Virus record (IMG/VR): IMGVR_UViG_3300042731_002945
Location: 1 to 25,896 of that record
From: a virus
Strand: one strand, 5' to 3'
DNA: 25,896 nucleotides
Each line of letters begins with the position of its first letter. Position 1 is the stretch's first letter. The position numbers were made by a program, and so were the translations under genes. Under the pieces are notes generated by a model. The model was not told the origin of the DNA. It saw only the letters and a list, made by a program, of their open reading frames with translations, and searched no databases. This document shows positions 3,108 to 19,615 of the stretch, piece after piece.

Positions 3108-4100
3108 ATGTTCAATCGGGAAAACATCAAGGTTCGCCCACTGAGCGAGGAGCTTGAGGGCATCGGTCTCGATCCTGACAAGGTGATGGACGACATCGAG
3201 CGCAACGCTGGGTTGCTCGAGCAGTATGCCGGAAGCCCGCCGTCGTCTGAGGCCGTGAGGCCGCGCCTGGTCGAGGAGACCGAGGACAACACGGATACGG
3301 ATACGGACACCGATGACGAGGAGTTCGTGGAGTGGGACGGCGAGGACATTGATGACGACGAGGAGCTTGAGTTTCTCGGCGAGAAGATTGTCCGGAAGAA
3401 AAAGGGGTATCGTGAAGACCCCAAGACCGGCAAGATGGTGAAGGTCAGCATCCAGCAGAAGCGCAAGGAAAAGCGCAAGAGGATGAAGAAGCGCGGCAAG
3501 CTTCGTACAGCAGCCAAGATGTACCAGAAGCGGTTCAAGACCAAGATCAAGCGGCGCCGTAAGCGCCTCGCCAGAAGCGGGAAGCAGAAGAAGGGCTTCA
3601 TCGCTCGCATGGAAGGCACCGTGGGAGATCAGCTCCGACAGCTCCGAGAAGATCTGGAGCAGAGCGACATCAACACGGGCGAGCCGAGTCCCTTCGAGGA
3701 AGCGGCCATCAATGCTGGTTGGCTGGCATTGCTCCTGGGTGAGTGCTTCGAGGCCATGGGTGATGCCGAGGCCGGAACGATGCTCTACACCATGAGCGAT
3801 ACGGCTGCGGATCTCTCCGAGGCCATCGAGGTGGCTGGCGGTGAGCTGGATGAGGACTTGGAGGCCAAGCTCACGTCCTTGCTCGAAGGCGTCACCAAGG
3901 CGCTTGCCACCCACGAGGAGATTGGCTCTCCCAGTCTCTTCGAGTCCATCCAAATGGGGGTCGAGAACGGCTTGTATGAGGATGATGACGACGAGGATGA
4001 CGAAGACCTCACCGAAGACGTGGATGGCGACGATCTCGACCTGTTCGAGGATGAGGACGAGGACGAGGACGACGAAATCGACTTCGAGGACGACGAGTAG
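3108..4100 (+). CDS. Charge-segregated protein (acid-base-acid), possible prohead core protein
   Basis: A 330-aa protein with strongly separated charge blocks: an acidic block at about residues 55-90 (TDTDTDTDDEE; ETEDNTD), a very basic block at about 93-165 (KRKEKRKRMKKRGK; KTKIKRRRKRLARSGKQKK), a helical middle part and a long Asp/Glu tail at about 285-330. Such a layout suits an internal prohead protein that meets both DNA and basic partners. It sits just downstream of the 314-aa protein and before the protease, in the gp67/gp68-like position. The start ATG at 3108 has a good GGAGG/AGGGGA leader. Residues 11-19 read PLSEELEGI, resembling the N-terminal tag found on small proteins downstream but not at the extreme N-terminus. 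The function is inferred from position and composition; no family was recognised. Confidence 0.6.
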   Translation: MFNRENIKVRPLSEELEGIGLDPDKVMDDIERNAGLLEQYAGSPPSSEAVRPRLVEETEDNTDTDTDTDDEEFVEWDGEDIDDDEELEFLGEKIVRKKKGYREDPKTGKMVKVSIQQKRKEKRKRMKKRGKLRTAAKMYQKRFKTKIKRRRKRLARSGKQKKGFIARMEGTVGDQLRQLREDLEQSDINTGEPSPFEEAAINAGWLALLLGECFEAMGDAEAGTMLYTMSDTAADLSEAIEVAGGELDEDLEAKLTSLLEGVTKALATHEEIGSPSLFESIQMGVENGLYEDDDDEDDEDLTEDVDGDDLDLFEDEDEDEDDEIDFEDDE

Positions 4101-4105
4101 GGGTT

Positions 4106-4327
4106 GTGGCGTGGATTCCCGTCGATTGGCTCATCGAAGCCAGTAGGCTGCGAACGAGGAGCGGTCGGCGGGAAACCTTGGGGTTTGGAGGAACGACTCG
4201 AGACAAGATCGGATTCGAGAAAAAGGGCAAGCGGAAGATAGTTTCCAAACGGAAGCGGCCAAAGCGGAAGCTTGGGGATCTTTTATCACGCGGGCCTCAC
4301 CGATCTCGTCTCATACGTTCAGGGTGA
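4106..4327 (+). CDS. Small very basic protein with N-terminal capsid-targeting-like tag (MAWIPVDWLIE/A)
   Basis: A 73-aa protein rich in Arg and Lys (GKRKIVSKRKRPKRK), so probably a nucleic-acid-binding internal head protein. The N-terminus MAWIPVDWLIEA closely matches that of the gene at 9033 (MAWISIDSLIEA), although the rest of the two proteins differs. The shared block ends in L-I-E before Ala, which fits the cleavage rule of T4 gp21-type prohead proteases ([L/I]-x-E). I chose GTG at 4106 because the match to the 9033 start runs from the first residue, although the Shine-Dalgarno run (TAGGGG) is unusually close. Its stop overlaps the region just before the protease start, so it sits immediately before its presumed processing enzyme. 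That it is real is supported mostly by the tag similarity. Confidence 0.6.
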   Translation: MAWIPVDWLIEASRLRTRSGRRETLGFGGTTRDKIGFEKKGKRKIVSKRKRPKRKLGDLLSRGPHRSRLIRSG

Positions 4328-4332
4328 AACAG

Positions 4333-5922
4333 ATGGCAGCTCTACTCATCGACACCATGCCTTTGACCTTCCAACTGGAAGAGTCCAAAGAACCCGGAAA
4401 GCTGGGCAAGGTCATTGCTCGCGGGCCATATGCTCGTAGTGATAAGGCCACCGAGAACAAGCGTCTCTACAAGCGTCACTTGTGGGAGCGTGAGATTGCT
4501 CGGATGTCTGAGGACATGGCGTCACGACGGACTTTTGGTGAGCTTGATCATCCTGCCGATGGGCGCACCAAGCTTCAGCGTGTAAGTCATCTGCTTACCG
4601 GGCTCAAGGTCGAGGGCAACGAGGTCATCGGTGAGTCGGAGATCCTGGACACCCCGAACGGTCGCATTCTCAAGACCATCATGGAGGCCCAGGCCCAGGT
4701 TGGCGTAAGCAGCCGGGGCTATGGTTCTACCAAGACGCTCCCTGACGGAACCATGGAGGTGCAGGAGGATTTCAGGCTCGACACCTTTGATTTCGTCGCT
4801 GACCCTGCGACCCGCTCAGCGTATCCGCAGGTGTTCCATGAGGAGCTTGAGCGGATACCGGAGGATGACATGGGGTTGACCGTAGAGGATCTGAGGACCA
4901 ACTATCCTGGTCTCGTAGAGGAGATTACCTCAACAGTGCTGGCCGAGAATGAGCGGCGTGTTGAGGAGCGGCTGACTGAGAAGTTCTCATCTGAGCTTCG
5001 GCGGAAGATGGAGCAGATCGGTGAGGCCGTCGAGGAGCGTGTCAGGAGTGAGTACCTGAGCGATCCCGAGGTGGCCGGTGCCAAGCAGGTCTTGGAGCGC
5101 GTCGCTTCGTTGGTCACGAGCTTCGCCAACCCCGTTGTTCATCAGCAAGAGCTTGCCTCGAAGGATGACGCCATCAAGGATCTCGAGGGCAAGCTGGCCG
5201 AGCGAGAGCTGGAGATTCAGAAGCTCCAGAAGGAGCACGGAGAAATCTCGACCGTTGCCAAGGAGGCCGCATATCGGCTTCATATGGAGCGAAAGATTGC
5301 TGGCGACCCGGCGAGAAATGCCATCGTCAAGCTCATGGGTGACATGGGCCAGTACGAGGACATCGAGGCATTGGACTCTCGCATTGAGGCGGTTCAGAAA
5401 GAGCTGTCTGCGGCTCGAGACGAGCATATCGGCGAAGAGGACGAGGCCAAGGGCGAGCTGGCCGACAAGCTCAAGGGGCTTGAGGATCGCCTTGACCAGG
5501 CAGAGAAGCGGGCCGACGATGCTGAGCAGAAGGTTTCTGAGGCCAATGAGCGGACCCGGAAGGCCATCGAGATTGCCGAGGCCGTGCAGGTTCAGTCGTT
5601 CATTGAGGGCATCGTGTCGTCGCATACTGACGGTGACGAGCTTGAGGAGCTTCTCGAGGGCGTCAGGTCTGTTGATGAGGCGACTCGAATCGTCCGGACC
5701 TTTGAATCCAACTCATCGAGCCGCAGGGCTCGTGATGAAGATGAAGCAGAGAGAATTCGTGCCCGGGTAGGGCGCGGTAAGCAGCGGTCTCTCGAGGAAG
5801 ATACCTTTGGGAGGTCGCGTCGTAAACCAAGCAATGGCCAGCAGGGCGCTACGCTGGATGATTTCGGGCTCACAGAAGACGAGTTCGATGAGCTTGCAGG
5901 GACGGGAAATCTGACCTCGTAG
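4333..5922 (+). CDS. Prohead maturation protease (S80, gp21-like) fused to a coiled-coil scaffold region
   Basis: Residues ~1-180 form a serine protease of the phage prohead type: His73 in FGELDHPADG, Ser126/127 in GVSSRGYGS, then DTFDFVADPATRSAYP, which is the usual end of the T4 gp21/S80 domain. From about residue 190 to 470 the protein is Glu/Lys/Ala-rich and predicted by eye to be a long coiled coil (IKDLEGKLAERELEIQK; LEDRLDQAEKRADDAEQK), as in scaffold proteins. T4 makes protease (gp21) and scaffold (gp22) from separate genes; here they are one 529-aa chain. Expected roles are to shape the prohead and then cleave core, capsid and tagged internal proteins after L/I-x-E. I prefer ATG 4333 (AGGG eight bases upstream) over GTG 4324, which overlaps the preceding stop. 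The major capsid gene follows. Confidence 0.88.
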   Translation: MAALLIDTMPLTFQLEESKEPGKLGKVIARGPYARSDKATENKRLYKRHLWEREIARMSEDMASRRTFGELDHPADGRTKLQRVSHLLTGLKVEGNEVIGESEILDTPNGRILKTIMEAQAQVGVSSRGYGSTKTLPDGTMEVQEDFRLDTFDFVADPATRSAYPQVFHEELERIPEDDMGLTVEDLRTNYPGLVEEITSTVLAENERRVEERLTEKFSSELRRKMEQIGEAVEERVRSEYLSDPEVAGAKQVLERVASLVTSFANPVVHQQELASKDDAIKDLEGKLAERELEIQKLQKEHGEISTVAKEAAYRLHMERKIAGDPARNAIVKLMGDMGQYEDIEALDSRIEAVQKELSAARDEHIGEEDEAKGELADKLKGLEDRLDQAEKRADDAEQKVSEANERTRKAIEIAEAVQVQSFIEGIVSSHTDGDELEELLEGVRSVDEATRIVRTFESNSSSRRARDEDEAERIRARVGRGKQRSLEEDTFGRSRRKPSNGQQGATLDDFGLTEDEFDELAGTGNLTS

Positions 5923-5937
5923 CGCCGCAGGGTCAGT

Positions 5938-5955
5938 GACGGAGGGAGATAGGCC
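5938..5955 (+). promoter_or_regulatory. Strong ribosome-binding leader of the capsid gene
   Basis: The leader GGAGGGAGATAGG directly precedes the capsid ATG and is repeated with one change before the tail sheath gene (15097-15114). It offers an extended match to the anti-Shine-Dalgarno sequence at suitable spacing, as expected for the two most abundant virion proteins. Confidence 0.7.
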
Positions 5956-7452
5956 ATGGAGGCACGGAACATGAATCTGACCGAGGCTGGATCGCGGTCC
6001 ATCCGTGATGACAGTTACACTGGTCAGCTTGTCGAAAAGTGGGATCGCTTCTTGAAGGGAGTCTCCGAAGACTACACCAAGAAGTGTATGGCGATGCTCA
6101 TGGAGAACCAGTTTCTCGATATGCGTCGTCAACTCGCCGAGGATACCCTCAGCACCAACGCGGGTGTGTACACCAAGTACATCTTCCCCGTGTTGCGCCG
6201 GGTGTTCCCGAACCTGATCGCCAATGAGATCGTCTCGGTTCAGCCGATGACGGCTCCCGTCGGTGCCGTTTTCTATTTCGAGTACAAGCATGGTCGGTCC
6301 AAGGGCCAGACCACGGCGGGGACGAACCTGATCCAGAACTTCGACGATCAGTACAGCTCGGAGAAGATCGAGGACGAGCAGCTCACTCCGGTTCTGGCTG
6401 GTGGTGAGTGGTTCACCGGCAGCCCCGGCTCAGTCATCTTGCAGTACAACCCGGTTCGTCCCCTGGATGCGACCGTGGGGTACTCGCTGACGGTCGAGGA
6501 GTACAACCCGACCACTGACACGGTTGTTCAGTCTCACCAGGACAACGGAGCTGGAGGTTTCACTGGTGCCTTGACCGGTGCCATCAACTACGCCACGGGA
6601 CAGATCACGAATTTCACATTCGCCCTGGTCACCACGGCGGGCAACTATGTCCGTGCCACCTACTGGTACGACATGGAAGGCAACCGGAACATCCCGGATG
6701 TCTACATCGACATCGAGTTCGAGACCATTCGGGCGCAAACCCGGAAGCTCAAGGCTCGTTGGTCGAGCGAGGCCGCCGATGACCTTCGCGCCTTCCACGG
6801 CATCGACGCCGAGACCGAGCTGGTCAGCGGCATCAGCCAAGAGGTTGCGCTGGAAATCGACCGTGACATCCTGTCGCAGCTCTTCACCGCTTCGGCGGGG
6901 ATCATCGAGACGTTCGACTTCACGGTTCCGGCGGGCATCACCGAGATCGATCACATTCGGGCCATCATGACCCGTATGAGCGCGGTCAGCTTCCAGATTC
7001 ACAAGCAGACCCTTCGGGCGCCTGCCAACTGGTATGTGACCAGCCCCGAGATCTCGGCCAAGATGGTCCAGATGCAAACCCATGCGGACTATCGAGCCCC
7101 GTGGGTCAGTGGCGGTGGCAACACACAGGGTCCGTTCGACGGCATCATGGTGCCTCCGAGCTACGGCCCCATGACTTCGCATCAGGGCATCCTGAAGATG
7201 GGACCGCTGTCCAACAAGTGGATGGGCTATCAGGACCCGTTCTTCCAGTGGAACCAGATGATGCTCGGCCTTCGAGGTCGCAGCTATTTGGACGCTGGCT
7301 TCGTGTTCAGCCCCTACGTGCCTCTCCAGATGACTCCGACCTTCCTCGACCCGGAAGACCAGAGCTATCGCAAGGGCATGAGGACCCGTTACGCCACCAA
7401 GCGGCTGCGTGACGAGTGGTATGGGCGTGTAACGATAACGGGTGGCTTGTAG
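5956..7452 (+). CDS. Major capsid protein (T4 gp23-like)
   Basis: A 498-aa HK97-fold capsid subunit of the gp23 lineage. Recognisable segments are RRVFPNLIANEIVSVQPM (81-98; T4 has RRAIPNLIAFDICGVQPM), KLKARWSSEAADDLRAFHGID (264-284) and the C-terminal FVFSPYVPLQMTPTF with KGMRTRYATK. Residues ~155-240 form an insertion with D-N-G-A-G and I-N-Y-A-T-G motifs that also occur in the tail sheath protein here. gp23 is trimmed by the prohead protease after L-T-E; this protein has L/I-x-E sites at E10 (NLTE/AG), E50 (LME/N) and E62 (LAE/D), any of which could be the maturation site. The start ATG 5956 has an excellent leader. An intrinsic terminator follows at 7525. The identification is secure. Confidence 0.95.
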   Translation: MEARNMNLTEAGSRSIRDDSYTGQLVEKWDRFLKGVSEDYTKKCMAMLMENQFLDMRRQLAEDTLSTNAGVYTKYIFPVLRRVFPNLIANEIVSVQPMTAPVGAVFYFEYKHGRSKGQTTAGTNLIQNFDDQYSSEKIEDEQLTPVLAGGEWFTGSPGSVILQYNPVRPLDATVGYSLTVEEYNPTTDTVVQSHQDNGAGGFTGALTGAINYATGQITNFTFALVTTAGNYVRATYWYDMEGNRNIPDVYIDIEFETIRAQTRKLKARWSSEAADDLRAFHGIDAETELVSGISQEVALEIDRDILSQLFTASAGIIETFDFTVPAGITEIDHIRAIMTRMSAVSFQIHKQTLRAPANWYVTSPEISAKMVQMQTHADYRAPWVSGGGNTQGPFDGIMVPPSYGPMTSHQGILKMGPLSNKWMGYQDPFFQWNQMMLGLRGRSYLDAGFVFSPYVPLQMTPTFLDPEDQSYRKGMRTRYATKRLRDEWYGRVTITGGL

Positions 7453-7992: not shown

Positions 7993-8250
7993 ATGCGCCT
8001 TTCTGAGGAGCTATATGGTGCCATCTTCGAGATGAGTGCCCGTGATGTTCGTAAGAAACTTCGCCGCGCTGGCTGTATCGAGCTGCGCCAGAAGGGGAGT
8101 CATGTGCAGGTATCGTGCCCTCCAGATTTGAAGGGCACGGTTCCTGTTCATGGAAAAAAGGACATCAAGAAGGGTACACTGAAGGCCATCGAAAAGTCGT
8201 TGCAGATTGATCTCGACGGTGACGGGAAGCCGCGTGGAGGTGGTTCATGA
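7993..8250 (+). CDS. HicA-family mRNA interferase-like protein with N-terminal capsid-targeting-like tag
   Basis: Residues 14-75 match the HicA toxin family, whose members are small dsRBD-fold ribonucleases that cut mRNA: MSARDVRKKLRRAGC, then R-Q-K-G-S-H-V with the catalytic His37, then PVHGKKDIKKGTLKAI, the standard HicA C-terminal block. The first 13 residues (MRLSEELYGAIFE) are extra compared with typical HicA proteins and resemble the tags on neighbouring genes. An I-F-E tripeptide (11-13) ends exactly before Met14, where an ordinary HicA would start, so cleavage by the phage protease could release a native-looking HicA. Leu3-Ser4-Glu5 is another possible site. No HicB antitoxin is adjacent. 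I chose ATG 7993 (GAGGTGG leader) over the upstream TTG; the stop overlaps the next gene by ATGA. The family call is strong; packaging in the capsid is inference. Confidence 0.85.
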   Translation: MRLSEELYGAIFEMSARDVRKKLRRAGCIELRQKGSHVQVSCPPDLKGTVPVHGKKDIKKGTLKAIEKSLQIDLDGDGKPRGGGS

Positions 8251-9026
8251 CCGACCCTCTCAACAGAGAGGACGCCATCGACTGGGTCAAGAGGTCGCTT
8301 GGCTGTGGAGCTGTCATTCTCGAGGTGACCGAGCAGCATGCAGATGACTCATTTGATGACGCTTTGAGATGGTGGATTGCGCGCAAGGGGATCAAGCGCC
8401 ATGCTGTCCAGAATATTGTGTCTGGCGAGTCGTCTTATGCAATGCCGGATGACTGTGACGAGGTGTTGGCGGTTTGGTTTCCTGGAGTCCAGCTTGACGT
8501 CATAGCGGCCATCAATCCCTTTGCATTCATCGACGTTGAGATGTTGCCAGTGGCCTATCAGAGCCTCACGGGACTGCCTGGTGGATCATTCTACGGCACC
8601 CTGCACCAGATGATTGCCCATGCGTCGACGGCGCGGCGTGTCATTGGTGCAGAGCCAGCCTTTGAGTACGACAAGGACATCAACACCCTTCACATTTACC
8701 CCACCAATCACCAGAGCGGGACGGCCATTGCTCGGTATGCCAGTACGACGCTGGTTACCGAGGACCCGACACCGCCGGCCACAACGCCGGTGAACGACTT
8801 CAAGAAGCTGCGGTTTCGGGACAGGGACCTTATCCTTCGGTACGCCAGGGCGTGCCTGAAGGTGCGTCTCGGGCGCGTGCGTAGCAAGTATACTGAGTGG
8901 CCGTCTGCGGGCGGTCCCAAGACCATGGACGGCGAGACATTGGTCAGTGAGGGCCAGGGCGAGTGGGACACCCTGACCGAGGAGCTGATTGGTCTCAGCG
9001 ATCCCGTTCCGTTCGTGGTTGGGTGA
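8247..9026 (+). CDS. Putative neck / head-completion protein (gp13-like)
   Basis: A 259-aa protein. Its N-terminus (AIDWVKRSLGCGAVILEVTEQHADDSFDDALRWW, quoted in outline) resembles the R-x-L-G-x-x-V-x-x-x-E-[LV]-T pattern of neck proteins in T4-like phages, where the next helix leads into D-A-[LI]-x-W. The C-terminal part (FRDRDLILRYARACLKVRLGRVRSKY, then a Gly-rich TMDGETLVSEG) is also typical of head-tail connector proteins of large myoviruses. Its start overlaps the HicA stop by ATGA, so the two are probably translated together. The position between capsid and sheath genes fits. The specific gp13 equivalence comes from memory of sequence patterns and is uncertain. Confidence 0.5.
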   Translation: MTDPLNREDAIDWVKRSLGCGAVILEVTEQHADDSFDDALRWWIARKGIKRHAVQNIVSGESSYAMPDDCDEVLAVWFPGVQLDVIAAINPFAFIDVEMLPVAYQSLTGLPGGSFYGTLHQMIAHASTARRVIGAEPAFEYDKDINTLHIYPTNHQSGTAIARYASTTLVTEDPTPPATTPVNDFKKLRFRDRDLILRYARACLKVRLGRVRSKYTEWPSAGGPKTMDGETLVSEGQGEWDTLTEELIGLSDPVPFVVG

Positions 9027-9032
9027 CGCGGC

Positions 9033-9461
9033 ATGGCTTGGATTTCTATCGATAGTCTCATAGAGGCCAAAAAGAAGCGCAAGGCGGCGCGTGGTGGCCT
9101 CAGCAAGAAACCGCCACAACAGAAGCCAAGGCCCGGTGGCTCACAGGCCAAGGCCAAGGTTGATCGGGTGCCGGCTCAACTGATGCACTGTGTCAACGCG
9201 GTGAAGGCTGGAAGGCCAAGCAAGCCTGGTGGGAAGCCTCAGAAGAAACATAGCGTGCGAGCGGCCTGGAACATCTGCCGGTGGTCCTTGACGCGGCATG
9301 GGTACCTGAAGCCGCCCTATAAAAAGAATGCCAAGCTGTCGAGTCTCCGTCAGACACAGAAGGGTTCGAGGGCGTCGATGAAGCATGCCATGGAGCCCGA
9401 AGCACCGGCGAAGTATAAGCGATTCAAGGACCTGTTCAGGGACATTGAGCCCACGGTGTAG
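9033..9461 (+). CDS. Basic DNA-binding-type protein with tag MAWISIDSLIE/A
   Basis: A 142-aa, strongly basic protein. The N-terminal MAWISIDSLIEA repeats the start of the gene at 4106 almost exactly and ends in the protease-type site L-I-E before Ala-Lys-Lys-Lys. After a Lys/Pro/Gly-rich linker (residues ~13-48) comes a more conserved-looking domain, SVRAAWNICRWSLTRHGYLKPPYK (~80-103), and a helical tail ending KYKRFKDLFRDIE. No known enzyme family is recognised. Charge suggests nucleic-acid binding, and the tag suggests that it is carried inside the head. It lies six bases after the neck-like gene. The start ATG is fixed by the tag match. Confidence 0.7.
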   Translation: MAWISIDSLIEAKKKRKAARGGLSKKPPQQKPRPGGSQAKAKVDRVPAQLMHCVNAVKAGRPSKPGGKPQKKHSVRAAWNICRWSLTRHGYLKPPYKKNAKLSSLRQTQKGSRASMKHAMEPEAPAKYKRFKDLFRDIEPTV

Positions 9462-9470
9462 GAGGATGCG

Positions 9471-9677
9471 ATGAAGCTTTCTGCAAAATTGAGTGAGGCA
9501 ATTGGTGATGGCATGGGTCACGGAGGGGTATGTAAGTGCTTGGAGTGTGGTTATTCGCAGCCCCATAGAACAGGTGAGCCATGCGAGAAATTGGAATGTC
9601 CGAAATGTGGCTCAAAAATGGTTCGAGAGGGTCAGGGCGAGAGGCCCGGTAGAGGCATGGGCATTGGAAGGATCTAG
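9471..9677 (+). CDS. Tagged zinc-ribbon protein (MKLSAKLSE/A)
   Basis: A 68-aa protein. The N-terminal MKLSAKLSEAIGDG is a member of the tag family and carries the L-S-E/A cleavage-type site at residues 7-9. The remainder is a compact zinc ribbon: C-K-C-L-E-C-G-Y, then E-K-L-E-C-P-K-C-G-S-K-M, that is two Cys-x-x-Cys-Gly knuckles. It ends in a Gly/Arg-rich tail (GERPGRGMGIGRI). The leader TAGGAGG is good and ATG 9471 is clear. The ribbon could bind nucleic acid or a protein partner such as RNA polymerase; neither can be decided. A longer shifted reading frame at 9493 on the same strand overlaps it but lacks the Cys pattern and the tag. Confidence 0.75.
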   Translation: MKLSAKLSEAIGDGMGHGGVCKCLECGYSQPHRTGEPCEKLECPKCGSKMVREGQGERPGRGMGIGRI

Positions 9678-9680
9678 GCT

Positions 9681-10322
9681 ATGAGCAGAACCACCTTTCA
9701 CGGAAAAAGCGGACGTTTTACATCTCCACGGTCGGCTCATACCGTGACCAAGGGCGGCGAGCGGTTCAAGATGGTGCGGCAGCTTCGGCGTATTGGCGGC
9801 AAGGCCCCGGCGCCCGAGCCCGAAGCAGACGTGGCCGATACCGTAGAGGCGGCCAAGGCCAAGGAAGAGATGGCGATGTTTGTAGCGGCATCTCCGGGCT
9901 GGATTCCTCTTCATGACGTGATGGGCGCCGCGTTTGGCGAGGATTTGGATGAGTGGGCGCTGGCCCATGGAAAGACCGCGTACAACGTGCCGCCGCCATT
10001 CATAGCTGCCAGGGTTTTGAAGATCACGGCCAGCAAGGTCAAGAAGGCATTGGCCCAAAAGCGGTACATCGCGAGCGGGCGCGGGCGGGCGTGGACCATG
10101 AGGTACACTGATGACCTGTCGCCCGGGATCAGGATTGCCCATTACCGGCATGACAGCAAGGATAGGAGCAAGGACTATTGGTCTGCTAGCGCCTATCAGG
10201 GGGCAGATTCTTCCAAGCGGTGGAAGAGCTTTGAGGACAAGGATCTCAAGAGGGTTTTGGCCTTTGCAAACGAGCACGCTCAAGAGGCGGCTGACGCCAT
10301 GGCACAAGAAGGAGCGATCTGA
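9681..10322 (+). CDS. Unknown 213-aa protein
   Basis: I do not recognise this protein. The N-terminus (MSRTTFHGKSGRFTSPRSAH) is basic and lacks the tag. A linker rich in Ala/Pro/Glu (~45-65) is followed by a helical domain (GWIPLHDVMGAAFGEDLDEWALAHG, then ITASKVKKALAQKRYIASGRGRAW) that could be a winged-helix-like nucleic-acid-binding fold: 'ASKVKKAL...RYIASGRGRAWTM' has the look of a recognition helix and wing. The C-terminus is again helical. It starts four bases after the zinc-ribbon stop with GGAAGGA upstream. Co-transcription with the tagged small genes suggests a related accessory role, but nothing here shows its function. Confidence 0.6.
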   Translation: MSRTTFHGKSGRFTSPRSAHTVTKGGERFKMVRQLRRIGGKAPAPEPEADVADTVEAAKAKEEMAMFVAASPGWIPLHDVMGAAFGEDLDEWALAHGKTAYNVPPPFIAARVLKITASKVKKALAQKRYIASGRGRAWTMRYTDDLSPGIRIAHYRHDSKDRSKDYWSASAYQGADSSKRWKSFEDKDLKRVLAFANEHAQEAADAMAQEGAI

Positions 10323-10324
10323 TC

Positions 10325-10639
10325 ATGAGGCTGTCAAACGAGCTAAAAGAATCGGTCGATAGGGTGAGTCAGGTTTTCCAGCTAAGGAAGCAGATCAAGA
10401 ACCTGTGGGAGGTTATTAATCTCGCCAGGGATTTCAGCGGTGAGGCATTGGCATATAGGCAGTTGTTGATACGGTCCTTGGAGAAAAATCATGACTTGGG
10501 CGAGCTTCTGTCGCCGTCTGTTAGAAACCAATTGTCCAAACATGAAAGAGAAATGGACAGGGTTTATGCAAAGTTCGACAAGGAGCTAAAAAAAGCCCCT
10601 AAGCCATTCAAAGACAAGTCTTGGACTGATCTACTTTAG
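10325..10639 (+). CDS. Tagged helical protein (MRLSNELKE/S)
   Basis: A 104-aa protein whose first ten residues MRLSNELKES match the tag consensus, with L-K-E/S as the cleavage-type site at residues 7-9. The remainder is almost wholly helical (QVFQLRKQIKNLWEVINLA; HEREMDRVYAKFDKELKK) and slightly basic. No family is recognised. The start ATG 10325 is two bases after the stop of the preceding gene; the tag fixes it. The AT content is somewhat higher than in neighbouring structural genes. It is probably an internal virion protein if the tag hypothesis is right. Confidence 0.68.
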   Translation: MRLSNELKESVDRVSQVFQLRKQIKNLWEVINLARDFSGEALAYRQLLIRSLEKNHDLGELLSPSVRNQLSKHEREMDRVYAKFDKELKKAPKPFKDKSWTDLL

Positions 10640-10652
10640 AAGGAACGATGTG

Positions 10653-10718
10653 ATGAATATCGAGCGAGTCAATGAGCTGTCCAGTTTGAGAAGAGATGTC
10701 TCTGGCAAGGGGAGATAG
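10653..10718 (+). CDS. Possible 21-codon micro-ORF
   Basis: Between 10639 and 10719 an ATG frame encodes MNIERVNELSSLRRDVSGKG plus one Arg, preceded by GAAGGA at 10639-10644 and ending directly at the next gene's ATG. It could be a leader peptide, a decayed tag gene or chance. The AAGGGGAGAT leader of the next gene lies inside it. Confidence 0.25.
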   Translation: MNIERVNELSSLRRDVSGKGR

Positions 10719-11282
10719 ATGGGCTTCTGTGGCGATGATTGCAAGCCCAAAAGGCGCATATTCCCGGGCGGCGAGTGCGGCGAGGGATGTGGAGACGAGC
10801 GCCAGGTTTGGGACTCTATCGCTACCGAGCCGGCGAGGCTGGCTGGCGAGCCCGTCAAATTCTACTCCATCCGGCGGGCCAAGAACCGCGATCCCCTCTA
10901 CAAAGAACCATCGGCTGAAGGCCAGGAATGGGCCTATGAGGGGCCGTTTGAGGTCTGGGCATCCATAGACTTCCCGCAGTCAGAAAACATTACCCAGGAG
11001 GCCACAGAGGTCGGGGAGCGCAGTGAGGCTGACGCCATAGCCTGGGTATCCCGCAAGGAGTTCGAGGACCGTGAGGCGCCGTATCCAAAGCGGGGGGACA
11101 TTTTGGAGTTCTGGGCTCAACCTCCGTGGGGGTACGAGCCAGAAAATACTCAGTGGGATGTGACCAAAGCGACCCGTGACGGCAACGTGTTCACGACGGC
11201 GGCCTTTGTGATGTACAAGGTTGAGCTAAAGCAGCGGAGCAAGTTCGTACCGTTCCGCAAGACGGAGCATAGCAGGATATGA
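10719..11282 (+). CDS. Putative neck protein (gp14-like)
   Basis: A 187-aa protein. The N-terminal 30 residues contain five cysteines (CGDDCKPKRR; GECGEGCGD) that could bind a metal. The core has an oxidoreductase-free, beta-rich look: YEGPFEVWASIDFP, then R-x-E-A-P-Y-P-K-R-G-D-I-L-E-F-W, which resembles the 'YPxxGDII' segment of T4 gp14-type neck proteins, followed by strands ending FVMYKVELKQRSKFVPFRK. It sits between a gp13-like and a gp15-like gene, in agreement with T4 order 13-14-15. ATG 10719 has AAGGGGAG upstream. The Cys cluster is not part of what I know of gp14. Neck assignment is tentative. Confidence 0.45.
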   Translation: MGFCGDDCKPKRRIFPGGECGEGCGDERQVWDSIATEPARLAGEPVKFYSIRRAKNRDPLYKEPSAEGQEWAYEGPFEVWASIDFPQSENITQEATEVGERSEADAIAWVSRKEFEDREAPYPKRGDILEFWAQPPWGYEPENTQWDVTKATRDGNVFTTAAFVMYKVELKQRSKFVPFRKTEHSRI

Positions 11283-11539
11283 GACTGTCAGATGAACTGA
11301 ATGAATCTTTGTCCGAGGGGAAGTATCCGAGACTCGAGGCAGAGACCGATGATCGCATTGATAGGCTCCTCAAACACCTTATGAGTGCAGAAGAGAAGCT
11401 GAAGGCTGCCAAGCGTGAGAAGTGGCAGGCAGAACAGCAAATAGGGACGCTTGAGGCTAGGATAAAGCACTACAAGGAGTCTATCGATAAGCTGCGTGCG
11501 GCCAAGAAAAAACTTGCTAAGGCGTCGACTCGAGGTTGA
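11279..11539 (+). CDS. Tagged coiled-coil protein (MRLSDELNE/S)
   Basis: An 86-aa protein with tag MRLSDELNES and the cleavage-type site L-N-E/S at residues 7-9. From about residue 28 to the end it is a continuous heptad-like helix (RLLKHLMSAEEKLKAAKREK; IGTLEARIKHYKESIDKL) ending in a basic Lys/Ala-rich stretch. It starts inside the stop of the preceding gene (ATGA overlap), implying translational coupling. No family is recognised. A small DNA- or protein-binding internal head protein would fit the composition and the tag. Confidence 0.7.
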   Translation: MRLSDELNESLSEGKYPRLEAETDDRIDRLLKHLMSAEEKLKAAKREKWQAEQQIGTLEARIKHYKESIDKLRAAKKKLAKASTRG

Positions 11540-11540
11540 A

Positions 11541-11972
11541 ATGAGACTGTCTCAGGAGCTTGAAGAGGCCACTAGGAGATCCCGAGTATTTGGTGATGCG
11601 TGGGGCTTGGTTGTGACGAAGGCGATGGCGCCAGAGTTGGCCAAGGGGGGTCTTGCATCATTGAAGCCGTCGGTTGTCTATCACGTCCGTACTCCGAAGC
11701 CGCATGATGAGTCATTGGGAGTTGTCGCAAAGAAGGGCAAGCGTTGGTATTACGCTTTGTCGCCGCAGTTTAGGCCAAAGCCGAGCCGTGATGCCAAGGG
11801 TGCCCTTCGAGGACTCATTGGCGCTCATATTTACGGGGTGATGAAGGCGGTGCAGGGGAGCCCGGAGAAATGGGGCAATACGGTGGACGACGCTCTGAAG
11901 AACTTGGAGTGTCCCATACTTCAGAAGCTTGCTCATACCTTTGGGTTCGTGAAGGAGTATGGAAGCCTGTGA
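11541..11972 (+). CDS. Tagged basic protein (MRLSQELEE/A)
   Basis: A 143-aa protein beginning MRLSQELEEA with L-E-E/A as the cleavage-type site. I place the start at ATG 11541, not at a start 45 bases upstream, because the tag begins there and it follows the previous stop by one base. The body shows strands (SVVYHVRTPKPHDESLGVVAKKGKRWYYAL) and a helix-rich C-terminal part (GLIGAHIYGVMKAV; DALKNLECPILQKLA). It is net basic. No family is recognised. Its first eleven bases after the start (ATGAGACTGTC) are nearly identical to the starts of the 11279 and 11969 genes. Confidence 0.7.
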   Translation: MRLSQELEEATRRSRVFGDAWGLVVTKAMAPELAKGGLASLKPSVVYHVRTPKPHDESLGVVAKKGKRWYYALSPQFRPKPSRDAKGALRGLIGAHIYGVMKAVQGSPEKWGNTVDDALKNLECPILQKLAHTFGFVKEYGSL

Positions 11973-12364
11973 GACTGTCTCGGCAGCTCGAGGAGGCACT
12001 GAAGGTGCCCACCCCTTACGACATGCACGTCAAGCACGGCATGCCGCTGACGCCGACCTTTATCACCAAGGGGCGCAAGGGAGTAGAGGCCAAGGGACCA
12101 CACCTGTTTTGCTCTAGGACACCTGACGGGAAGTGGAAGATTGATGGACGGCTCAAGGGTAGCCGCCGAAGCGTGAAGGTGCTCGAGAAGAAGAGGATGG
12201 CCTATCAGATGGCCCGGAAGCTTCTCAATCACCTGCGTGATTATGGTGATGATTTCGTGGTGAATGATGGGAAACGGACCTGGAGGGTCAAGGCCGGTGA
12301 CACGTTGGCCTTTACTGATGCCCAGAAGGGCATTGAAAGATGGTTCAAGAGAGGTGGATCATGA
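11969..12364 (+). CDS. Tagged basic protein (VRLSRQLEE/A, GTG start)
   Basis: A 131-aa protein read from GTG 11969, which overlaps the preceding TGA stop (GTGA). The frame is open further upstream, but the tag RLSRQLEEA begins here and the longer version would overlap the previous gene by about 100 bases. L-E-E/A is the cleavage-type site. The body is basic: FITKGRKGVEAKGPHLF, WKIDGRLKGSRRSVKVLEKKR, then a helical region and VNDGKRTWRVKAGDTL. No family is recognised. It belongs to a run of five coupled short genes (11279-12752). Confidence 0.68.
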   Translation: MRLSRQLEEALKVPTPYDMHVKHGMPLTPTFITKGRKGVEAKGPHLFCSRTPDGKWKIDGRLKGSRRSVKVLEKKRMAYQMARKLLNHLRDYGDDFVVNDGKRTWRVKAGDTLAFTDAQKGIERWFKRGGS

Positions 12365-12405
12365 GTCTTGCGAAAGAAATACTGGGCGAGCTGGGTGCGC
12401 TGTGA
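12361..12405 (+). CDS. Orphan 14-residue tag-like peptide
   Basis: A 14-codon frame, MSLAKEILGELGAL, too short for ordinary gene finding. Its ATG overlaps the stop of the gene before (ATGA) and its TGA overlaps the GTG start of the gene after (GTGA), so it is placed like a translated link in a coupled chain. Its pattern, x-L-[AS]-x-E-[IL]-x-[GE], is that of the tags, with L-G-E at residues 8-10. It may be a free tag, a coupling peptide or a remnant of a tagged gene. Existence as a stable peptide is unproven. Confidence 0.4.
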   Translation: MSLAKEILGELGAL

Positions 12406-12752
12406 AACTTTCGGAGCAGCTACATGAGGCCATTGGCTCTAGGCGCCTTGATGAGGCTGCTGAGCGCGTTGTTTTGTCAGTTGGCCAGATGGTCTCGGTG
12501 AGGAACAAGCGTGGTGTGACGGTCATAAAGAGGGGCCGCATTGCCAATGTAGACTTGCCCACGGGAACCATCCGGGTGGAGGACATCGATTCAGGCACGA
12601 CGCTAGAGGTTGATGTCAATCCTGAGAAGTACACTGTCTGGGTATTGCCGCCCCCAGACGCCAAGGTGGACAGGATGTCCAGGATCAAGACCCTGTATGT
12701 CCGTGGCGGTGGTCTCAGGCCGAGCGCGTATCAAGGGGGGAAGTGGCCGTGA
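12402..12752 (+). CDS. Tagged beta-rich protein (VKLSEQLHE/A, GTG start)
   Basis: A 116-aa protein starting at GTG 12402, inside the stop of the 14-residue ORF. The frame continues upstream to 12264 but would overlap the previous gene by 100 bases; the tag KLSEQLHEAI marks the true start. L-H-E/A is the cleavage-type site. The body, SVGQMVSVRNKRGVTVIKRG then TIRVEDIDSGTTLEVDVN, looks like a small beta-barrel (SH3- or KOW-like) that could bind nucleic acid. The last part ends RGGGLRPSAYQGGKWP. No named family is recognised. Confidence 0.72.
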   Translation: MKLSEQLHEAIGSRRLDEAAERVVLSVGQMVSVRNKRGVTVIKRGRIANVDLPTGTIRVEDIDSGTTLEVDVNPEKYTVWVLPPPDAKVDRMSRIKTLYVRGGGLRPSAYQGGKWP

Positions 12753-13084
12753 GCGAGATGGCCAAAAGGCTGATGGAGATGGGCTTCTCGTTCATCTGTG
12801 CCAACTGTACCAAGATGCACACCGGCATCATGCGCGGCGAGCAGCATTGCGGCTATGCCTTGAGGGGAAGGGTGTGTGGTGGTCCGATATCTGGAGAGGC
12901 ATTCCAACAATATGAGGGGCCGCTGACCAAGCAGACCATTGCCGAGGTCTGTTTTCGTTGTGGCGCCGATGCTACTGAGCTGATCGAGGTCAAGGGCAAG
13001 GGATTTGTGGGAGCCTGTGAGCAGCACATTGGCATGCTGAAGACCATGAAGCCAGTGGTTCCAAGGGCTGGCAAAACCGCATGA
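12749..13084 (+). CDS. Cys-rich zinc-finger-like protein with tag-like N-terminus
   Basis: A 111-aa protein. I prefer GTG 12749, which overlaps the previous stop (GTGA) with AAGGGGGG eight bases upstream, over GTG 12743. It begins MSEMAKRLMEMG, a looser tag with L-M-E/M at residues 8-10. Cysteines occur as C-A-N-C, a single Cys in QHCGYAL and in RVCGGP, then C-F-R-C-G and a final A-C-E-Q-H, compatible with two zinc-binding sites. No catalytic motif is seen. The end overlaps the next gene by ATGA. It is likely part of the accessory set, perhaps nucleic-acid binding. Confidence 0.65.
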   Translation: MSEMAKRLMEMGFSFICANCTKMHTGIMRGEQHCGYALRGRVCGGPISGEAFQQYEGPLTKQTIAEVCFRCGADATELIEVKGKGFVGACEQHIGMLKTMKPVVPRAGKTA

Positions 13085-13884
13085 ATTTTACGGTCAAGCA
13101 GAGCCCTAAGAACAAGCCGGTGATGAAGCTCGTTGATGATCTTCCGGAGCGAGTAGAGGCTATCATCAAAACGTTCCCCCAGCTCGTGGCCTTTGATGTT
13201 CTAAAAATCATTCAGTCCGGGGCGCCGAGGGACATCGAGGGCTACCCTGACATGCTTAGGGTGAGAGACCTTCCAAGCATTCAGGGATGGGAGCTAACGG
13301 CAATTCTTCCGCCCGGTTGGGCGTCGTCTCAAAGGCTACGTTCCGTTGACGTGAAACGAACAGTGTTGTACGTTCGTCCCAAGGTGACGGGCGGGAAGGT
13401 CGTGGAGCCGGCTACGGTTGTTTTGGAGCGTAGCAACCCCTGGACCATGGATACGTTGCCATACGAACCGAGCAGGTTCGAGGCGAGCATGTTGTCAAGG
13501 CGGGTTACAGAGCAAGAGGCCAGGGTCATTGAGAGTAGGAGGCGAGAAGAGCTTCCTGATATTCGCCGTGAGCTGAAGGATCTCGGTGTGACGCTGAGGC
13601 CGGCTGGCAAGGTGGTCTTGAGCCGGCGCGTGACCCGTGACATTGCTTTTGAGGTTCTGCGCTACGAGTTCGGTATTCCGCCAATGCCAGGGCGTTCTCA
13701 TTGGCGCCCTGCCATCAGAATGGTGCCCAACACAATTACCAAGAAGGCCCTGAAATCACTCGAGCGATGGATATCGAGCCCACAGGATGCAGGATTCAAG
13801 ACGGCTGAGGATCTGCCGTATGAGAAAGCATCGGTGGCCAAGAGGCTGCGTAGGTTCCAAGACTTGGTGGCGGCGGGGTTGTAG
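13081..13884 (+). CDS. Unknown virion-type protein before the gp15-like gene
   Basis: A 267-aa protein without tag. It has an alpha-helical N-terminal part (LVDDLPERVEAIIKTFPQLV), a beta-rich centre (RTVLYVRPKVTGGKVVEPATVVLE) and a basic helical C-terminal half (ARVIESRRREELPDIRREL; EKASVAKRLRRFQDLVAAGL). The start overlaps the preceding stop by ATGA and its own stop is immediately followed by the next ATG, so it is translated with the tail-completion gene. By position it could be a head-tail joining or tail-completion protein; no sequence family is recognised. Confidence 0.55.
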   Translation: MNFTVKQSPKNKPVMKLVDDLPERVEAIIKTFPQLVAFDVLKIIQSGAPRDIEGYPDMLRVRDLPSIQGWELTAILPPGWASSQRLRSVDVKRTVLYVRPKVTGGKVVEPATVVLERSNPWTMDTLPYEPSRFEASMLSRRVTEQEARVIESRRREELPDIRRELKDLGVTLRPAGKVVLSRRVTRDIAFEVLRYEFGIPPMPGRSHWRPAIRMVPNTITKKALKSLERWISSPQDAGFKTAEDLPYEKASVAKRLRRFQDLVAAGL

Positions 13885-15114: not shown

Positions 15115-17763
15115 ATGGCAGAACGATTTCACCCCGGGGTGTACGTTGAGGAGCGGCGCGGCGGGCTGGCCCCGATTCAGGGGGTCTCCACGTCGAACAT
15201 GGGTATCGTGGGCTTCACGCTCAAGGGACCTGTGGATGTTGCCACATTGGAGACGAGCTTTCCTGCTTTCGAGCGAGAGTTTGGAGGCTTTACGTCTCTC
15301 AGTCAGGTGCCAACCCACACATACGCATTCTTTGCCAATGGTGGACGGCGAGGATACATCGTCCGAGCCGTGCCGTCGGATGCGGTGGCGGCAACCGGAG
15401 AGATTGCGAATCCCATCTGTGAGGAGACGGTTGGAACCGGTGACGGAACCACCAAGGACTTCACCTCTGGCGGCACGGCGCTGACGCCATTGTCCGGGCT
15501 TCCGGTTCAGGCAGTAACGCCGTCGCCTGGTGGCGTGGCGATCACCTACTACGAGGCCGGTACTCCAGTTACCACGCAAGCATGTACCCCGGTTCCGGCT
15601 CCTGATGGTGTGGCTGGTGTTTCTGCTGGCGGCAACAATGCCCTGATCAGCCGAATCGTGACCGTGGCGGTGGCTGGAGTGTCTCCGGGTATCGTGCCTG
15701 GTACGGTGGTCATCAATACGCTCGTGAGCGCGGCTCCCGTGCTCTACGGAGACGGGGCTGGATATGCCCCGGCGGCCCCCCAGGAAGGTATTGGGAACCT
15801 GTACGACGTGGCTGGCATCCAGCGTGGATACATCGACTATGACACGGGGATTTTCAACCTGTCGTTCGATATCGCCACGCCACTCGTGCCCGATGCGGCA
15901 GGGGCGTTCACGGCGGACTACACTCCGCTTACGACCGTGCCGGTCACCATTTACGATGACGGTGCAGGGGCCTTGGCCTCGACGACCACCACGCTCGACG
16001 GCGGTGGACCGAACACCATCGACTACACAACGGGCGCCATCGAGTTCAAGATTGCTGTGGGCTCGCCAGCGCCGGCCAACAAGCAGCCCATCAACGTCTG
16101 CTATTCCCAGGTGCTCTGGGATTACTCGGCGTCTTCTCAGGGAGAATGGGGCAACGATCTCAGCGTGGATGTACGGGGTGATGACGACTTCTTCACCAGG
16201 ACCACGGCTGTGTTTTCGAGATATGACGTCCTCGTCTATCTCGATGGTGAGCTGGATGCGGTCTATGAGGACGTGAGCTTTACCGATACGTCCGATACTC
16301 GATATGTCGGCGACGTCATCAACAATGTTGGTACCGGATCGTCACTCATTGAGTTTGACGAGCCGTCAAATGCCGATGTTGGGCCTCGTCGGTTGAGCGG
16401 TTACGCTCGCTCTGTGGGGTGCGCGGCTGGTAACGGCGGCATCCCGGTGGCGACTCCGACACTGGATTATGGGTCGACCGATGGTACGGCGGTAGCCGGC
16501 GGTGTGGGCTCGGCGGTTATCCCCGTTGGTGTTCGCACCCTCCCATTGGATGCTCCAGTCCAGCCCGGTTCGGTATCCATCACCTATACCGACAAGAACG
16601 GTACTGCCAGGACCATCACGGATGACGGCAGCGGGTATCTGATTGGTGATGTGGATGGTACGGCGCCGTCCAACTTGAACGTCATTGACTACACCACCGG
16701 TCATTTCTCGTTCCGTGTAGTGGCTGGCCAGGAGCTTGCCGAGCCCGAGACGAGCCATGGTGCTGGCCCTGCGGTTGTGGTTGCCGGTTCCGTTGCGACG
16801 GCGGCCTACTACAAACAGCCCGATCTTTCCATCGTGGAGAACGCGGCTGCCGGTGGTAGTGACGGAGCTTCTCCTGGGGTGTTGACTCGTAACGAGCTGA
16901 CTGACCCGGCGCTCCTCACCGACCGCGACGGCATGTACGCCCTGTTGGTTCCGAATGAGCTGATGAACGTGACCATCCCCGATGCGGCTGGGAACGTTAC
17001 CATGTCGACGGACCAAATCACCGAGGCCGAGCGCAACGGGATGTGGTTTGTCATTCTCGCGACTCCTCCAGGGCTCACTCCGCAGCAGGCGCAAGATTAC
17101 CGTGTGAACACATTGGGGGCCAACAGCAGCTATGCGGCGCTGTACTACCCCTACATCACGATCACGGACCCCGTGACGGACCTCCCGGCGAATATACCGC
17201 CCGGCGGTCACATCGCGGGCATCTACGCCAGGGTCGACAACACCAAGTCGGTTGGCAAGGCGCCGGCTGGTGTCGAGGACGGGAAGATCAACTTCTCCAT
17301 TGGTCTCGAGCGGACCCTTGAGTTCGCCGAAATCGACATCCTGTACCCCAAGCAGATCAACGCCCTGATTGACACGGCTCAAACCGGGCGGTGCGTCTGG
17401 GGGGCCAGGACGCTTGAGAATCCGCCAAGCGATTTCCGCTTCATTCATGTGCGGAGGCTCTTCAACTTCTTGAAGGCGTCGATCTTCAACAGCACCCACG
17501 GATTCGTGTTCGAGAGCGTGGGGGCTGGTCTCCGGAAGCGGATCAAGCTGTCCGTCGAGAGCTTCCTGCTGACCCTGTATGGCCAGGGGCTCTTCAAGGG
17601 CGATTCGCCGCAGGCGGCCTTCTCGGTTATCTGTGACGAGAGCAACAATCCTGAAGAGGTCGAGAATAGCGGAACAGTTATCTGCGACATTTACGTCGCG
17701 GCTAACGTGCCCGGAGAGTTCATCGTCTTCAGGATTCAGCAAAAGTTCACGGCTGCTGAATAG
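15115..17763 (+). CDS. Tail sheath protein (gp18-like), large, with inserted repeat modules
   Basis: An 882-aa contractile-sheath subunit. The N-terminus FHPGVYVEERRGGLAPI, then STSNMGIVGFTLKGPVD, and the C-terminal INFSIGLERTLEFAEIDIL, RRLFNFLKASIFNSTHGFVFE and the closing ICDIYVAANVPGEFIVFRIQQK are standard for the myovirus sheath family. T4 gp18 is 659 aa; the extra length lies mostly in residues ~100-335 and ~440-570, where three modules share D-[GD]-G-[AS]-G followed by I-D-Y-[DT]-T-G (240-245, 302-307, 524-529) and end in an aromatic strand. These likely decorate the outer surface of the tail. One module of this kind also occurs in the capsid protein. Secure identification. Confidence 0.95.
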   Translation: MAERFHPGVYVEERRGGLAPIQGVSTSNMGIVGFTLKGPVDVATLETSFPAFEREFGGFTSLSQVPTHTYAFFANGGRRGYIVRAVPSDAVAATGEIANPICEETVGTGDGTTKDFTSGGTALTPLSGLPVQAVTPSPGGVAITYYEAGTPVTTQACTPVPAPDGVAGVSAGGNNALISRIVTVAVAGVSPGIVPGTVVINTLVSAAPVLYGDGAGYAPAAPQEGIGNLYDVAGIQRGYIDYDTGIFNLSFDIATPLVPDAAGAFTADYTPLTTVPVTIYDDGAGALASTTTTLDGGGPNTIDYTTGAIEFKIAVGSPAPANKQPINVCYSQVLWDYSASSQGEWGNDLSVDVRGDDDFFTRTTAVFSRYDVLVYLDGELDAVYEDVSFTDTSDTRYVGDVINNVGTGSSLIEFDEPSNADVGPRRLSGYARSVGCAAGNGGIPVATPTLDYGSTDGTAVAGGVGSAVIPVGVRTLPLDAPVQPGSVSITYTDKNGTARTITDDGSGYLIGDVDGTAPSNLNVIDYTTGHFSFRVVAGQELAEPETSHGAGPAVVVAGSVATAAYYKQPDLSIVENAAAGGSDGASPGVLTRNELTDPALLTDRDGMYALLVPNELMNVTIPDAAGNVTMSTDQITEAERNGMWFVILATPPGLTPQQAQDYRVNTLGANSSYAALYYPYITITDPVTDLPANIPPGGHIAGIYARVDNTKSVGKAPAGVEDGKINFSIGLERTLEFAEIDILYPKQINALIDTAQTGRCVWGARTLENPPSDFRFIHVRRLFNFLKASIFNSTHGFVFESVGAGLRKRIKLSVESFLLTLYGQGLFKGDSPQAAFSVICDESNNPEEVENSGTVICDIYVAANVPGEFIVFRIQQKFTAAE

Positions 17764-19066: not shown

Positions 19067-19615
19067 GTGGGTCGTCTGTCAGAGCAACTAGGGTCGGCGA
19101 TTCGTCCAGGACCCCCTGACTGTGAGGGGCTGATCGTCAAGGTGGCCAATCTCAGCAATGAGAACTACCCTGGAATGGATGTTCAGGGTGTGCTCCCTGT
19201 GCTTGTTGTTGGCCATCAAGACCTCAGTGAGCATGAGTGGGCCTCGTGGGTCAAGATGCAAGCTATGGCGCCCTATGGGATTGCTTATGCGTCCCGACTG
19301 GCCGAAGAGGGTGTTGACCTCAAGGACATGATGCCGACAACGGCTCTTGGCCGACACATGAGGAAGCCTGGAGGGGGCTCGAATTATTCTCGTTTTGAGT
19401 ATCTTGATCGAGCGGGATACATATTGACCTTGGTCGAGAAGTGGCCCTCGCTCTATAATCTGATATCAGAGGAGATGAAGGAGCAACGGATGACCCTCGT
19501 GGAGTTCGTGAGGCGAGTCCAAGAGCTACCTTCTCCGCAAGAGGTTGGGCAGGGGCGACACTCAACACTGGGTGACCTTATCAGTCGTTTGGTCACCGTC
19601 ACCCCTGATTTTTAG
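19067..19615 (+). CDS. Protein of unknown function with tag-like start (VGRLSEQLGSAI)
   Basis: A 182-aa protein. GTG 19067 has a full AGGAGG leader (19055-19060). The N-terminus GRLSEQLGSAIRPG is close to the tag of the 12402 gene (KLSEQLHEAIGS) but has Gly-Ser where that has His-Glu; L-S-E at residues 4-6 is a possible alternative cut. The body is alpha/beta: GLIVKVANLSNENYPGMDVQ, VLPVLVVGHQDLSEHEW, then helices (YILTLVEKWPSLYNLISEEMKEQ). No family is recognised. It lies directly before the tube gene. Confidence 0.62.
   Translation: MGRLSEQLGSAIRPGPPDCEGLIVKVANLSNENYPGMDVQGVLPVLVVGHQDLSEHEWASWVKMQAMAPYGIAYASRLAEEGVDLKDMMPTTALGRHMRKPGGGSNYSRFEYLDRAGYILTLVEKWPSLYNLISEEMKEQRMTLVEFVRRVQELPSPQEVGQGRHSTLGDLISRLVTVTPDF

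Follow-up and report, generated by a model that had tools for sequence, protein, structure and literature searches.

Candidate capsid-targeting leaders on unrelated small proteins in the head-tail block of an uncultured T4-like phage

In phage T4 the prohead protease gp21 cuts its substrates after L/I-x-E, and the ten residues of the capsid-targeting sequence (CTS) of the internal protein IPIII are enough to package foreign proteins (PMC9026906). Residues 4 and 7 of this sequence serve targeting and residues 8 and 10 serve processing; an Asp at position 10 stops processing but not targeting (PMC9026906). The head protein gp24 likewise loses its first 10 residues (PMC9958956). The CTS-bearing internal proteins vary among the T-even phages, and one of them, IPI, counters a restriction enzyme (PMC3012670, PMC9391042). 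In the T4 record IPII and IPIII start with MKTYQEFIAE/A and gp24 with MAKINELLRE/S (here and below a slash marks a cut or candidate cut). We have analyzed a viral DNA stretch of 25,896 bases, hereafter the window, which is the full IMG/VR record IMGVR_UViG_3300042731_002945; there is no larger assembly of this record. Its gene content is that of the head-tail block of a T4-like myophage, and the source phage appears to be a distant uncultured relative of T4. Several small proteins of the window begin with the same short tag, and these tags are probably capsid-targeting propeptides of internal proteins, which would be cut by a gp21 homologue encoded beside them.

The strict form of the tag is M/V-[RK]-L-S-x-x-L-x-E followed by A or S. 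It is found at six gene starts, with no further strict match in the window:

9471 to 9677, plus strand: tagged protein, MKLSAKLSE/A, 68 residues, zinc-ribbon-like body with two CxxC pairs (zinc-ribbon matches weak and below cut-off)
10325 to 10639, plus strand: tagged protein, MRLSNELKE/S, 104 residues, no known family in the body (a single sub-threshold family match)
11279 to 11539, plus strand: tagged protein, MRLSDELNE/S, 86 residues, coiled-coil-like body (weak sub-threshold family matches only)
11541 to 11972, plus strand: tagged protein, MRLSQELEE/A, 143 residues, strict tag, no family match
11969 to 12364, plus strand: tagged protein, VRLSRQLEE/A and then a VPTP box (LKVPTPYDMHVKHGMPL), 131 residues; tag and box also in the orthologue of the relative G007
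12402 to 12752, plus strand: tagged protein, VKLSEQLHE/A, 116 residues, small Tudor/SH3-like barrel body; orthologues with three kinds of tag

The initial annotation had reported these six starts, and it is borne out on each point: all six are in frame and far above chance, L-x-E stands before a small residue in 6 of 6, and the bodies show no significant similarity to one another (best mutual E 0.05-10). They thus share a leader of about ten residues while being otherwise unrelated. Under a column-independent null built on 663 predicted N-termini, the chance of a strict tag is 2.5e-6 per gene, or 9e-5 expected in 35 genes; a body-composition null gives 2.6e-5 for the same number of genes. Six N-terminal pairs of non-homologous genes scored 28 or more, a number that none of 100 internal-window or 100 shuffled control sets reached (internal windows: mean 0.1, maximum 1). 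The codons for the common Leu, Ser and Glu differ between copies at synonymous sites, which points to selection on the peptide and hence to a protein-level signal. These codon differences also rule out a repeated DNA element as the source of the tags.

Relatives of the window were collected by capsid-protein and protease scans of IMG/VR, which yielded about 20 loci, and by a scan of GTDB genomes, which yielded a 183-kb phage contig with the same head module (L053, JAJDDX010000500.1) binned in a Phycisphaerae metagenome-assembled genome. The relative G017 lies in such a genome; the binning is a possible but weak hint of the host. The longer loci read were G004, G006, G007, G011, G013, G014, G015 and G017, of which G004/G007 and G014/G015 are near-identical pairs in this region. 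Genes in relatives come from a simple gene caller of our own; its starts can deviate by a few codons, and the key ones were checked. The interval from capsid to sheath holds a different set of small genes in each relative, and the tags fall into several families. Family A (MxLSxxLxE/A) occurs in the window, G006, G007 and G011. Family B (MDIxxVNxVLxxAIxxFQE) heads nine called genes in G006 and seven in G007, and family C (MxWIPxDxLxE) is that of the orthologues of window genes 4106 and 9033. Family F (MDLxxYLAE/S) heads four genes in G017, where tags read MDLQEYLAE/S, MDLREYLAE/S and MDIRSFLSE/S, and G013 and G014 have MYNDKKLMEGID-type starts. Tagged genes also occur at a distance from the neck genes, at 37-44 kb in G006 and at 3.7-24 kb in G017. 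Among 50,697 phage records no match was found to the 9033 protein, to the 12402 protein or to a 60-residue sequence based on the type-B (MDIxxVN) leader, and five aligned type-B leaders, scanned against IMG/VR, hit already known contigs only. No tags were seen in the distant IMG/VR contig G009, where gene calling was poor. In the 595-kb uncultured phage LR756511 (L030, 495000-544000), starts near the capsid gene read MDFKEWY, MEFREWF, MNFKQWF and MLTWTEFLEA; the MxFKEWF type suggests a further dialect of the same signal.

Orthologous bodies exchange these leaders. The 12402 body carries a type A tag in the window, G007 and G011, a T4-like tag (MKSYSEQLRE/A or MKPWSKQLSE/A) in G013/G014, and type B in place of the tag in G006. 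The leaders listed across its orthologues include, besides the T4-like pair, MKLSEQLHE/A, MSLAKQLHE/A and MDVQRINAVLREAIVALQE/S; L7, E9 and A10, and no other tag positions, are invariant among six orthologues. A zincin-like body of about 400 residues is headed by MRLSDVLLE/A-AMAGSYKVPTP in G006 (37662) and by MDLQHFLAE/Q in G017 (3700), and the alignment of the two (E 4e-49) begins downstream of both leaders. The untagged window protein at 9681 matches separately tagged proteins of G007, its N-terminal half being 35402, whose leader ends IDE/A, and its C-terminal half 36585/37042, of type B. The 1304-residue type-F-tagged protein of G017 contains a domain that is also present in the core protein of G013. 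Such swaps would be the behaviour of interchangeable targeting leaders and are hard to explain by paralogy.

The protease expected of a CTS system is encoded in the same genome. The product of 4324-5922 matches Pfam Peptidase_S77 (PF03420, E=1.2e-15) and phrog_207 (E=6e-45), aligns with the crystal structure of T4 gp21 (PDB 5JBL, E=2e-8), and has both catalytic motifs, with His and Ser, as GELDHP and GVSSRG (GELNHP and GVSSRG in T4; GISSRG in G017). It had first been described as gp21-like, which is correct, and as an S80 protease (phiKZ type), which is ruled out by the Pfam result, S77 being the sole prohead-protease family matched. Its own N-terminus has the candidate site QLEE/S, and the protease N-termini show LEE/S, LQE/S, LAE/S or LTE/A in all genomes where they were read. 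Portal proteins begin with L[FW]E/G, and capsid proteins of most genomes have LTE, LNE, LSE or LAE within about 10 residues of the start, with L8 and E10 invariant in five orthologues. Overall, [LI]xE before a small residue occurs within residues 4-26 of 36% of the capsid-to-sheath genes and 15% of genes elsewhere (p 8e-6); in residues 41-63 of the same capsid-to-sheath genes the figure is 6%.

Other leaders in the window are related to the strict tag or resemble it more loosely; they are given here with the untagged protein at 9681:

4106 to 4327, plus strand: small basic gene with the sister tag MAWIPVDWLIE/A, directly upstream of the protease
7993 to 8250, plus strand: HicA-family mRNA-interferase fold (PF07927, E=2.3e-15) with the tag-like leader MRLSEELYG/A
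9033 to 9461, plus strand: basic conserved protein of 142 residues with the sister tag MAWISIDSLIE/A; [WF][IV]PxDxLxE-type leader in six genomes
9681 to 10322, plus strand: untagged protein whose halves are separate tagged proteins in G007 (35402, E 1e-42; 37042, E 6e-24)
19067 to 19615, plus strand: doubtful member, with the tag-like leader GRLSEQLGS/A lacking L-x-E; conserved in relatives

The sister tags noted initially at 4106 and 9033 are real, since orthologues in other genomes keep the pattern: those of 4106 begin with MNWWIPVDLVFE/A, MNLIPVDLLME/V, MWIPVRWLLE/A and MRWVPLEWLFE/A, and the G007 copy of 9033 has a VPTP box inserted behind the tag. The structure model of the 9033 protein (predicted local distance difference test score, pLDDT, 51) was too poor for use. 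Because the 4106 tag sits on a small basic protein directly before the protease, its product may belong to the core and not to the cargo. Looser tags had also been proposed at 7993, 12749, 17786 and 19067. Three of these starts are indeed tag-like and conserved, namely 7993 (orthologues MRLSDELYA/A in L008 and MRPSEELQA in G011), 17786 (MKKLAEEIRGIL) and 19067; they do not have the [L/I]-x-E that, before a small residue, ends the six strict tags and the 4106 and 9033 leaders. The absent Glu does not by itself exclude targeting of 7993 and 19067. The start at 12749 is no tag, being part of a conserved body (RLMEMGFSFICANC in the window against RFMKQGYSFVCSCC and KLMKAGYAFPCACC in relatives).

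A second motif, [YF]x[VI]P[TSA]P, stands a few residues behind the leader in G006 and G007, and in several genes is followed by xxMHRRxGMPL or a variant. In these two genomes 19 of 22 boxes lie among the N-terminal 50 residues (p 3e-9 against a background of 25%). The window protein at 11969 carries it as well, and the core proteins of G013/G014 carry it internally after ELVE. No description of this box was found in the literature, although no search aimed at the box was made. Given the predicted cleavage, it would be retained on the mature protein. Tentatively, cargo throughout the clade may bear a two-part address, in which a cleavable prohead leader is followed by a YxVPTP box with its own job on the mature N-terminus, for example a grip on the core or DNA, or threading in ejection. 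With such an address the phages could fill the head with a rapidly varying arsenal that includes a HicA-like RNase, an acetyltransferase and zincin-like proteins, and complete cargo domains would be incorporated in the core protein too. As a separate observation, the core/scaffold-like protein has grown to 574-799 residues in G013 (4291-6015, L043) and G014 (10934-13333, L046), and has inserted cargo-like domains and a YxPPTP box beside L-x-E sites in the manner of a scaffold polyprotein.

Most cargo bodies belong to no recognised family. The 7993 body is a HicA domain (PF07927) at 56.9 bits against a curated cut-off of 27. This gene directly follows the capsid block and is kept in L008 and G011; no antitoxin was recognised among the neighbouring genes, the only place where HicB was looked for. 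In G017 the body of 6442 is an acetyltransferase of the GNAT family (PF00583), the sole family above cut-off in a Pfam search of 16 cargo proteins of relatives. Zincin-like proteins with the motifs HELGH, HEMGH and HEYTH were recognised from the sequence in G006, G011 and G017, below Pfam cut-offs. The AlphaFold model of the 12402 body is a barrel (pLDDT about 80 in residues 31-80), for which Foldseek gave weak Tudor/SH3-like barrel matches only, indicating no function. To judge from these family assignments, the HicA-like toxin, the acetyltransferase and the putative proteases could plausibly be early-acting proteins.

The likeness to T4 extends to several features. As in IPI-IPIII and Alt, a short [L/I]-x-E leader before a small residue heads unrelated small proteins, an S77 protease of the gp21 type is encoded in the same genome, and the cargo set differs between relatives. 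The G017 leader MDLQEYLAE/S is close to MKTYQEFIAE/A, with a hydrophobic or aromatic residue at both targeting places, whereas the window tags fit one place: MRLSxELxE is another sequence, with no aromatic at the second. Unlike T4, there are several tag families in this one clade and more tagged genes, grouped between capsid and neck genes, with the YxVPTP box added, and no likeness of the cargo bodies to known internal proteins was found. The window leader MRLSNELKE/S also resembles the T4 gp24 propeptide MAKINELLRE/S, which the prohead protease cuts off after 10 residues; gp24, however, is a shell protein, and the leader here is on small non-shell proteins. In SPN3US and phiKZ, head proteins are also cut near the N-terminus behind a short motif whose last residue is E, and several are ejected (PMC10052503), but the motif is A-x-E, the propeptides are mostly long (111-254 residues, two of 20-24), the protease is diverged, and no common short tag family is described in PMC10052503. 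The N-terminal 30 residues of P1 DarB are enough to send a reporter into the capsid (PMC9024508), although P1 is an unrelated phage and DarB one very large protein. The principle is known from T-even phages; the tag sequences, the cargo set and the second motif are new here, in that this analysis did not find them elsewhere.

If these leaders act as proposed, the N-terminal 9-28 residues would bind the prohead core during head assembly and so take the protein fused to them into the prohead as it grows. A cut after [L/I/F]-x-E by the gp21-type (S77) protease would then free the mature protein in the head beside the DNA. Part of the cargo would probably be ejected with the genome and act early in the new host, although this delivery, which is argued from the T4 precedent, is less certain than targeting and cleavage. 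Bodies could gain, lose or swap a tag, split, fuse, or become part of the core protein; since the leader alone would be needed for entry, cargo could be exchanged freely.

Several observations weigh against capsid targeting. Counted back from the cut, the window tags have L at the first targeting place and E, Q or K at the second, against Y (position 4) and F (position 7) in the IPIII CTS; the aromatic residue that T4 has at position 7 is missing. The leaders at 7993, 17786 and 19067 have no cleavage glutamate, and the capsid protein of the more distant G017 retains neither L8 nor E10 and has no N-terminal L-x-E. No repeated tags were found in the same region of the cultured T4-like phages with related capsid genes, SP-15, immuto and Mel-JY01, some of whose head proteins have L-x-E near the start. 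Finally, L-x-E is short and common, so that isolated cases carry no proof. The original proposal of capsid cargo nonetheless gains strong support by comparison from the tag swaps, the near-T4 tags in G017 and the L-x-E sites on protease, portal and most capsid precursors, once the S80 label, the 12749 tag and L-x-E in the three looser leaders are dropped and 4106 is set aside as perhaps core.

Could the common N-termini instead be the remnant of a single fast-diverging paralogous family with no targeting role? Tagged genes are adjacent, and true paralogues exist in relatives (G007 36585/37042, 59% identical); even so this is highly improbable, as the bodies look like different folds (HicA, small barrel, GNAT and, judged by sequence, zincin-like and coiled-coil-like), unrelated tag families head orthologous bodies, and the halves of the untagged 9681 protein are separately tagged in G007. 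Docking on the outer surface of portal, neck or tail, with L-x-E an incidental product of helix composition, would suit the location of tagged genes among the neck genes from capsid to sheath and the 7993 and 19067 leaders without E. We consider it quite unlikely, since tagged genes also occur far from neck genes in G006 and G017, the invariant tag positions in the 12402 orthologues are precisely L, E and A, one orthologous body bears a tag close to the T4 CTS, and the same site is found on protease, portal and most capsid precursors.

A third explanation accepts capsid targeting and holds that the proteins are assembly-time parts of the core, uncut or degraded and lost, with little or no cargo reaching the host. 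The T4 core proteins gp67, gp68 and gp22 are cut up by gp21 and mostly lost, the position-10 Asp stops processing and leaves targeting intact (PMC9026906), and 4106 directly precedes the protease, as gp67/gp68 do in T4. This seems unlikely: a HicA toxin fold (PF07927) and predicted enzymes (GNAT PF00583, zincin-like) would be odd as disposable scaffolding, and the gene set differs between relatives. Should the leaders prove to be cleaved targeting propeptides, the N-termini preceding L-x-E would provide a sequence-only listing of the proteins that T4-like phages of uncultured hosts bring in at infection, those likeliest to counter first-response defences or to begin host takeover. Capsid targeting would then amount to a modular code in which several leaders can replace one another; these leaders would extend the choice of tags for delivering proteins and would help to find out what it is that the prohead core recognises.

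The remaining genes of the window are arranged as follows:

15 to 2060: portal with an intein
2149 and 3108: two core-like genes
3108 to 4100, plus strand: prohead core/scaffold-like protein with acidic and basic blocks, preceding the protease; its orthologues are the enlarged G013/G014 proteins with cargo-like domains and the VPTP box
4324 to 5922, plus strand: prohead protease of the T4 gp21 family (Peptidase_S77), fused to a C-terminal coiled-coil-like part
5956 to 7452, plus strand: major capsid protein of gp23 type (phrog_138, E=8e-62) with the candidate N-terminal cleavage site NLTE/A
8247: neck gene
9033 to 13084: run of small genes
15115 to 17763: tail sheath, with more genes between it and the run of small genes, and followed by tube-like genes and tail/fibre genes

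The capsid protein has about 34% identity to its best phage record, a 595-kb uncultured phage. The portal intein (within 15-2060) comprises about 385 residues, begins C-LHGSTEIQLLDG, ends FVCN/S (the slash here marking the end of the intein) and has an HNH-like stretch inside; it is seemingly absent in G006 and shorter in L008, and related inteins occur nearby in G007. A homing-endonuclease-like reading frame (FGWWVTGLVDGEGCFYASL) is inserted directly before the tail sheath gene of G007 (42651-43199, reversed coordinates). In the window, the tail-fibre-like protein at 23823-25196 contains the internal repeat LLQADGRLTTIDxVLDxIKDTDGIKKITDxLPAG twice.

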